Of a stretch of DNA of 64,000 bases, positions 36,906-40,845 are shown one piece after another. Position 1 is the stretch's first letter, and each line of letters opens with the position of its first letter. Source of the DNA: Prolixibacteraceae bacterium (GTDB lineage Bacteria; Bacteroidota; Bacteroidia; Bacteroidales; Prolixibacteraceae); assembly GCA_009773765.1 (NCBI GenBank), contig WTWZ01000002.1, forward strand, positions 124,001 to 188,000. Direction: 5' to 3'. The notes beneath the pieces were generated by a model. It saw nothing but the letters and a program-made list of their open reading frames with translations. It was not told the DNA's origin and made no database searches. Made by a program: the position numbers and the translations under genes.

Positions 36906-40148
<3,243 letters not shown>

Positions 40149-40189
40149 TTCCGAATTTGAATAACTACAAAGTAGTTGAATAATAACAG

Positions 40190-40216
40190 CCCCGGATTTT
40201 CGAATTCGGGGTTTTT
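40190..40216 (+). terminator. Terminator after beta-galactosidase
   Basis: CCCCGGATTTTCGAATTCGGGG + TTTTT. Confidence 0.75.
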
Positions 40217-40227
40217 GTTTGCTCAGT

Positions 40228-40335
40228 GGGACTTTGACTTTCCCAAGTCAAAGTTTTTAAAATCTGTTTGAAACCTGAAAATAATGGACTTGGGAAAGTC
40301 CATGTCCCTGGTGGCCGCATCCGTCAATTGACGGA
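40228..40335. repeat. Nested inverted-repeat cluster (two hairpins complementary to each other, plus 16-bp palindrome TCCGTCAATTGACGGA)
   Basis: Left 40228-40249, right 40287-40308; palindrome 40320-40335. Confidence 0.85.
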
Positions 40336-40845
40336 CATCGTGTGGCACAATTTATAAGTATTGTATAACCTTGATTTGAAAAAATTAAGAAATAACTTTT
40401 GTAAAACCACGCGATATAATCCCGCGGGAGCGAGGGGTTTCAAAGTGGTTGATGGACACTTTAACGAGCGATGGCATCCTTGTTGATTTGAAAAAGCATT
40501 TTCAGGAATTATGGCAATTTATTGTTCTTATGGCATTTTGCAGGATAGCGCACAAATCCCCTTTAAAGAACATTCCTTTTTACCTGGAGCAATCAGGTTT
40601 GCCAAACATACAAGTTATATGTTATTCTAAAAACCACCCCATTAAAAACAGGGTTGTATTGCCCTTATTTTAATAGTTATGGTTAAAGAATTAAAAATAA
40701 AATACTCGCTGAGTTATTGTCTTTTTTCAAAAAAAGTTCATTTTTCAAAAGAAAATCATATATTGCAAAAGTTTGTAAATCAATTTTTAATATATTACGA
40801 ACAAAAGTAAATTAAAAACCAATATTAATGCTTAATTTGAAGAAC

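Follow-up and report, generated by a model that had tools for sequence, protein, structure and literature searches.

A pair of inverted GGGA-tagged hairpins downstream of a lacZ-like gene as a probable REPIN of a dispersed Prolixibacteraceae repeat family with its own RAYT clade

The DNA that we analysed, here called the window, is a stretch of 64,000 nucleotides corresponding to C21:124001-188000 of a 4.27-Mb Prolixibacteraceae genome (G000). Its features of interest are listed in Table 1. A long ORF, which we take from its sequence and from general knowledge to be a GH2 beta-galactosidase-like gene (lacZ), is followed by a terminator-like hairpin, and beyond this lie two further hairpins in inverted orientation, the subject of this report. 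Orthologues of the lacZ locus, at 82%, are found in two related genomes (G008 and G022), where the genes downstream differ, synteny being altered beyond lacZ, and the comparison of this locus therefore yielded no empty site for the pair. Immediately 3' of the pair, at 40309-40350, there is an imperfect hairpin around CCGTCAATTGACGG, for which the same genome holds no second copy. Further downstream, a segment of about 85 bp (40646-40730) upstream of a small cysteine-rich ORF recurs at C97:40423 and C98:2502 with about 85% identity.

Table 1. Features around the hairpin pair, in window coordinates
Feature	Position	Strand	Remarks
GH2 beta-galactosidase-like (lacZ) ORF, presumed	36945..40148	+	1067 aa; stops 79 bp ahead of the pair; context only
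Terminator-like hairpin of lacZ	40188..40213	+	upstream of the REP pair
Probable REPIN, complete head-out inverted REP pair	40228..40308	.	81 bp, made up of both units and the 29-bp spacer; based on sequence, genome-wide family and pair geometry
REP unit 1, 'T4' type	40228..40253	+	tag GGGA; stem CTTTGACTT/AAGTCAAAG; loop TCCC
Spacer separating REP units 1 and 2	40254..40282	.	weak internal complementarity; top of the long fold
REP unit 2, 'G4' type	40283..40308	-	tag GGGA; stem CATGGACTT/AAGTCCATT, outermost pair mismatched; loop TCCC
Unit of second REP family (CCACGCGATATAATCCCGCGGGAGCGAGGGG)	40405..40441	+	hairpin common to the flanks of another RAYT, C56:57513

A preliminary description of this DNA had reported two inverted hairpins with mutually complementary cores and loops, and direct reading of the sequence confirmed them exactly. 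Hairpin 1 occupies 40231-40254 (ACTTTGACTT-TCCC-AAGTCAAAGT) and hairpin 2 occupies 40285-40302 (TGGACTT-GGGA-AAGTCCA), the outer complementary arms of the pair lying at 40228 and 40305-40308. The two 22-mers said to pair with each other do start at 40228 and 40287. The cross-complementarity and the 'kissing' loops arise because the hairpins are two inverted copies of one unit with a nearly palindromic core. The proposed choice between two small hairpins and one long one is also real on paper, DNA parameters putting the long fold at -17.4 kcal/mol and the two hairpins at -14.2 kcal/mol. The 131-nt region around the pair has a fold z-score of -6.3 relative to dinucleotide shuffles, and 0 of 200 shuffles folded as well.

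Each strand of the window has exactly one copy of the core GACTTTCCCAAGTC. The sequence is not unique in the genome, uniqueness being what the preliminary description had named as speaking against its proposal: when up to one mismatch was allowed, 63 matches were found genome-wide (21 of them exact), compared with 7 for the reversed control. BLAST of the region together with a pattern scan gave 71 curated units of this GGGA repeat in the genome. The consensus unit consists of the tag GGGA, a 9-bp stem ([C/G/T][T/A][T/C/G][T/G]GA[C/G]TT), the loop TCC[C/A/T] and the mirrored stem. Among the 71 units the four tag positions are conserved in 62 (G), 68 (G), 70 (G) and 69 (A), and a TCCn loop is present in 66. 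Stem pairing reaches 97.2% across the 60 distinct units, a percentage biased upward by the choice of units with at least 7 of 9 stem pairs, a choice that does not explain the variety of pair types. For the same 60 units the stem covariation was 0.424, against 0.109 (sd 0.015) for shuffles and 0.018-0.104 for slid versions. The units mostly form head-out inverted pairs 57-97 bp in length, and 42 head-out pairs were counted at 45-110 bp in this genome and its relatives. A stringent unit pattern, GGGANNNNGACTTTCCNAAGTC, was found in 22 of 140 genomes of the bacterial family, and the control gave 0 matches. Among named genomes, pattern matches fell in MAGs of an uncultured Draconibacterium, of Prolixibacteraceae and of Bacteroidetes. 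The Draconibacterium MAG has a Y1 match at the same coordinates as a same-genus genome (G027), so that the window most likely comes from Draconibacterium or a close relative. Elsewhere in the genome, two near-identical pairs with shared flanks (C87:106020-106086 and 110342-110408) stand about 4.3 kb apart, and part of that region seems to have been duplicated.

Nearly all units are intergenic. According to an ORF-based estimate, 22 stand between divergent genes, 29 between co-directional and 14 between convergent genes, with five 'inside' genes, at least two of which are due to errors of the ORF finder or to the RAYT gene itself. This distribution bears on the proposal that the pair is a transcribed RNA switch that alternates between two small hairpins and one long one and thereby controls lacZ or a downstream gene. 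Both folds are predicted to be stable and the stems covary, which speaks for such a switch, but covariation is equally expected for a hairpin that is recognised as single-stranded DNA. With RNA parameters the long fold is ahead by 16 kcal/mol, and little switching is therefore to be expected in RNA. Moreover, the roughly 70 units adjoin unrelated genes in every orientation, the terminator-like hairpin of lacZ stands ahead of the pair, and in a search of Rfam no riboswitch or other known RNA family reached its gathering score. We have rejected the RNA switch on account of these last three results and regard it as very improbable.

A different role in transcripts was also considered, namely that the units are dispersed bidirectional terminators or mRNA-stability elements, kept as gene insulators, whose mobility is incidental. 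Many units lie soon 3' of a stop codon, TTTTT follows hairpin 1, unit 2 scores terminator-like on the minus strand, and such side roles of REPs are known (PMC3733652, PMC6006769). On the other hand, 22 of 73 units are situated in divergent gaps, where there are no 3' ends to serve, many units have no following T-run, and the repeat is tightly coupled to a single RAYT clade, as described below. We consider this explanation unlikely.

The preliminary description had also proposed looking for a REP-associated (TnpA-REP) transposase, and one was found in the genome and tied to a specific RAYT clade. A Pfam Y1_Tnp scan of the genome returned six genes, none of them near a GGGA repeat, and missed the cognate RAYT. 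In a genome of the same genus (G020), a weaker Y1 match, a protein of 291 residues, was located among GGGA units. It is recognised as a RAYT by model NF047646 with 80.1 bits, barely over the cut-off of 80 (E 1.4e-22), and aligns to E. coli TnpA-REP (PDB 4er8) over the region of the catalytic Tyr (E 6e-4). GGGA units are present on both sides of its gene and also in frame inside it, and a unit supplies the stop codon. A search with this protein identified the cognate RAYT of our genome at C33:77501-78019, again with units flanking both sides. The HuH motif and the catalytic Tyr appear in the RAYT ORFs as SNHFHW and DYTINNP/NYVINNP, and the C33 gene retains both. Nevertheless, no N-terminus was found upstream of it in the genome, and as this part is absent the C33 RAYT is probably inactive. 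The GGGA family in this genome is thus probably a fossil population by now, unless an intact paralogue on contig C107 acts in trans. A cognate-type RAYT was not detected in G008 and G018, though both carry many units.

We then compared the RAYTs with the hairpins around them. The RAYT protein search gave matches in 38 of the 140 genomes, and in seven genomes (G000, G020, G029, G043, G059, G072 and G101) GGGA units lie around or within the RAYT gene. In a maximum likelihood tree the seven GGGA-linked RAYTs, which come from four genera and are not sorted by genus, fall on one side of a branch with 100/99 support, and 14 others, with GCGGAT-type hairpins, fall on the opposite side. None of 500 shuffles of the labels separated the hairpin types as well. 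The unlabelled RAYT of G113 groups with the seven. The seven thus make up one RAYT clade, apart from the RAYTs of the other hairpin family.

Taking into account that the genome also contains three IS200-type TnpA genes, and that in G018 a pair lies inside a larger element bounded by TGACAG...CTGTCA, the units might instead be ends or remnants of IS200/IS605 or DDE-type MITE elements moved by another transposase of the genome. However, the GGGA repeat is near none of the three IS200-type genes, terminal repeats or target duplications are not apparent around the pair in the window, and units adjoin RAYT genes in seven genomes. There is very little likelihood that this explanation is correct.

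Concerning mobility, the two genes that flank a pair at C83:42733-42790 stand next to each other in G008 and G029 with no unit in between, and in G022 an uninterrupted match points to an empty site as well, these alignments being only 64-76% identical and fixing neither the exact junction nor whether a gain or a loss took place. Such alignments indicate that site occupancy varies between relatives. No transposition event or excision product of the GGGA family was seen. The family thus displays the features of REPs and REPINs in the broad sense: a short, dispersed, extragenic palindrome (71 units), a conserved tetranucleotide (GGGA) left unpaired at the 5' foot of each hairpin, units arranged as inverted doublets (42 head-out pairs at 45-110 bp, where REPIN spacers generally measure about 20-100 bp), and a cognate RAYT gene with units of the family at its flanks in seven genomes including this one. 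With GGGA as tag, it does not belong to the GTAG (GT[AG]G) or CGTC superfamilies; the results support a mobile repeat of the REPIN/BIME type whose tag is non-canonical.

The preliminary description had offered an RNA conformational switch or a REP/BIME-like mobile pair. The link to a RAYT clade upholds the latter, and the former falls with the upstream terminator, the unrelated neighbours and the Rfam result. We put at about 0.9 the probability that 40228-40308 is a REPIN of a dispersed, non-autonomous Prolixibacteraceae family spread by its own RAYT, a TnpA-REP-type Y1 HUH nuclease. By analogy with studied REP/RAYT systems, each unit would fold into a hairpin when the DNA is single-stranded, for example on the lagging strand; the RAYT would recognise the 5' tag GGGA and the TCCn loop and cleave, and would then move or copy the pair into other intergenic gaps.

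What the RAYT may read is suggested by the other hairpin family. The other RAYTs carry hairpins of the form GGGTG..GCGGAT-TCCn-ATCCGC, and our genome harbours an intact RAYT paralogue (C107:44172-44870) with its own family of about 23 GGGT-tagged, TCC-loop copies, units of which are also found inside the gene (locus C107:44048-45062). Common to both families are GGG[A/T] at the 5' foot and the TCCn loop, and the stems vary freely. TnpA-REP enzymes are known to use tag and loop (PMC8266576), and the pattern here agrees with this apart from the tag itself; by this analogy tag and loop are probably what the RAYT reads. A tag-loop pseudoknot (GGGA with TCCC) was also considered and rejected: in the sister family the tag becomes GGGT while the first base of the loop stays T, so that covariation does not preserve the complementarity, and recognition by a protein is likelier. 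The sister clade, a paralogue in the same genome with the same loop, a nearly identical tag and different stems, represents a natural contrast pointing to reading of tag and loop.

Pairs almost always combine two unlike units. In 41 of the 42 head-out pairs a 'G4' unit is joined to a 'non-G4' unit (T or C at stem position 4), where about 50% would be expected (binomial p 9e-12, a value that overstates independence, since local duplicates are among the pairs and a single unlike ancestor may underlie them all). None of the 42 pairs has identical stems, and the stem difference exceeds that of 5000 random re-pairings. When folded with DNA parameters, the best fold lies below the two-hairpin state by a median of 2.0 kcal/mol in real pairs and 17.2 kcal/mol in modelled like pairs. 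Unlike arms thus keep both fold forms accessible, and the 'switch' idea has, in these calculations, substance as a property of single-stranded DNA. As to the cause of the rule, we tentatively suggest that selection, and not only shared ancestry, may enforce unlike halves, either to leave the two-hairpin fold accessible to the RAYT or to meet a need for distinct left and right ends; we think it somewhat doubtful. In the sister GGGT family none of 11 pairs has identical stems, yet these pairs are no different from random re-pairing. A 2013 survey noted that many REP families prefer heterodimers, found that this 'has no obvious explanation', and proposed that it might protect against SbcCD (PMC3733652). 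The near-absolute rule in the GGGA family bears on this preference.

The best-described REP/RAYT systems are proteobacterial and have GTAG tags; the present one is a REPIN family of Bacteroidota in which the tag is GGGA, the TCC loop is invariant and the RAYT clade is cleanly co-inherited. It resembles the REPIN/RAYT system of Pseudomonas fluorescens SBW25 (PMC3116915) in that REP units are paired in inverted orientation across a short spacer, are extragenic and are tied to a specific RAYT, and in that what moves appears to be the doublet. Unlike in SBW25, the tag, stem and loop are others, the units of a pair are nearly always dissimilar, copies are far fewer and the RAYT is truncated in this genome. 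With the BIMEs of E. coli (Y and Z REPs) and their TnpA-REP, 4er8 (PMC8266576; PMC6006769), it shares a 5' tetranucleotide tag followed by a hairpin, heterodimeric pairs, and an HUH Y1 nuclease homologous over the region of the catalytic Tyr, but the tag is GGGA rather than GTAG, the stem has no internal bulge and the TCC loop is invariant. Among the TnpA-REP subclasses of Quentin et al. 2018 (PMC6006769), subclass 2.6 is similar by description, being mostly from Bacteroidetes, flanked by atypical hairpins without GT[AG]G that have copies elsewhere in the genome. Subclass 2.4 also has in-frame REP units inside the transposase gene; there the inserts lie between HuH and Tyr, whereas in the present family, whose tag is other than GTAG, they are N-terminal of HuH.

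Several other repeats and transposase genes were noted. The second REP family, CCACGCGATATAATCCCGCGGGAGCGAGGGG, has five copies in the genome and matches in many genomes of the same genus, and the RAYT that it flanks at C56:57513 is frameshifted. At C30:1668, a segment resembling a Y1 transposase and containing repetitive linkers stands in frame behind what appears to be the methylase part of a restriction-modification enzyme; parts of this contig are masked, and the arrangement is either a fusion or an assembly artefact. A third RAYT, at C11:33447, is flanked by GCCCCTCGTTGCAAACGAGGGGC hairpins, another REP type of the same genome. Finally, the TGACAG...CTGTCA element of G018 is repeated (loci L152-L171 and L189-L206), and the loop of the second unit of its pair often holds an insert, GCGCCATAGGCATC...; the element is MITE-like and has captured a REPIN.
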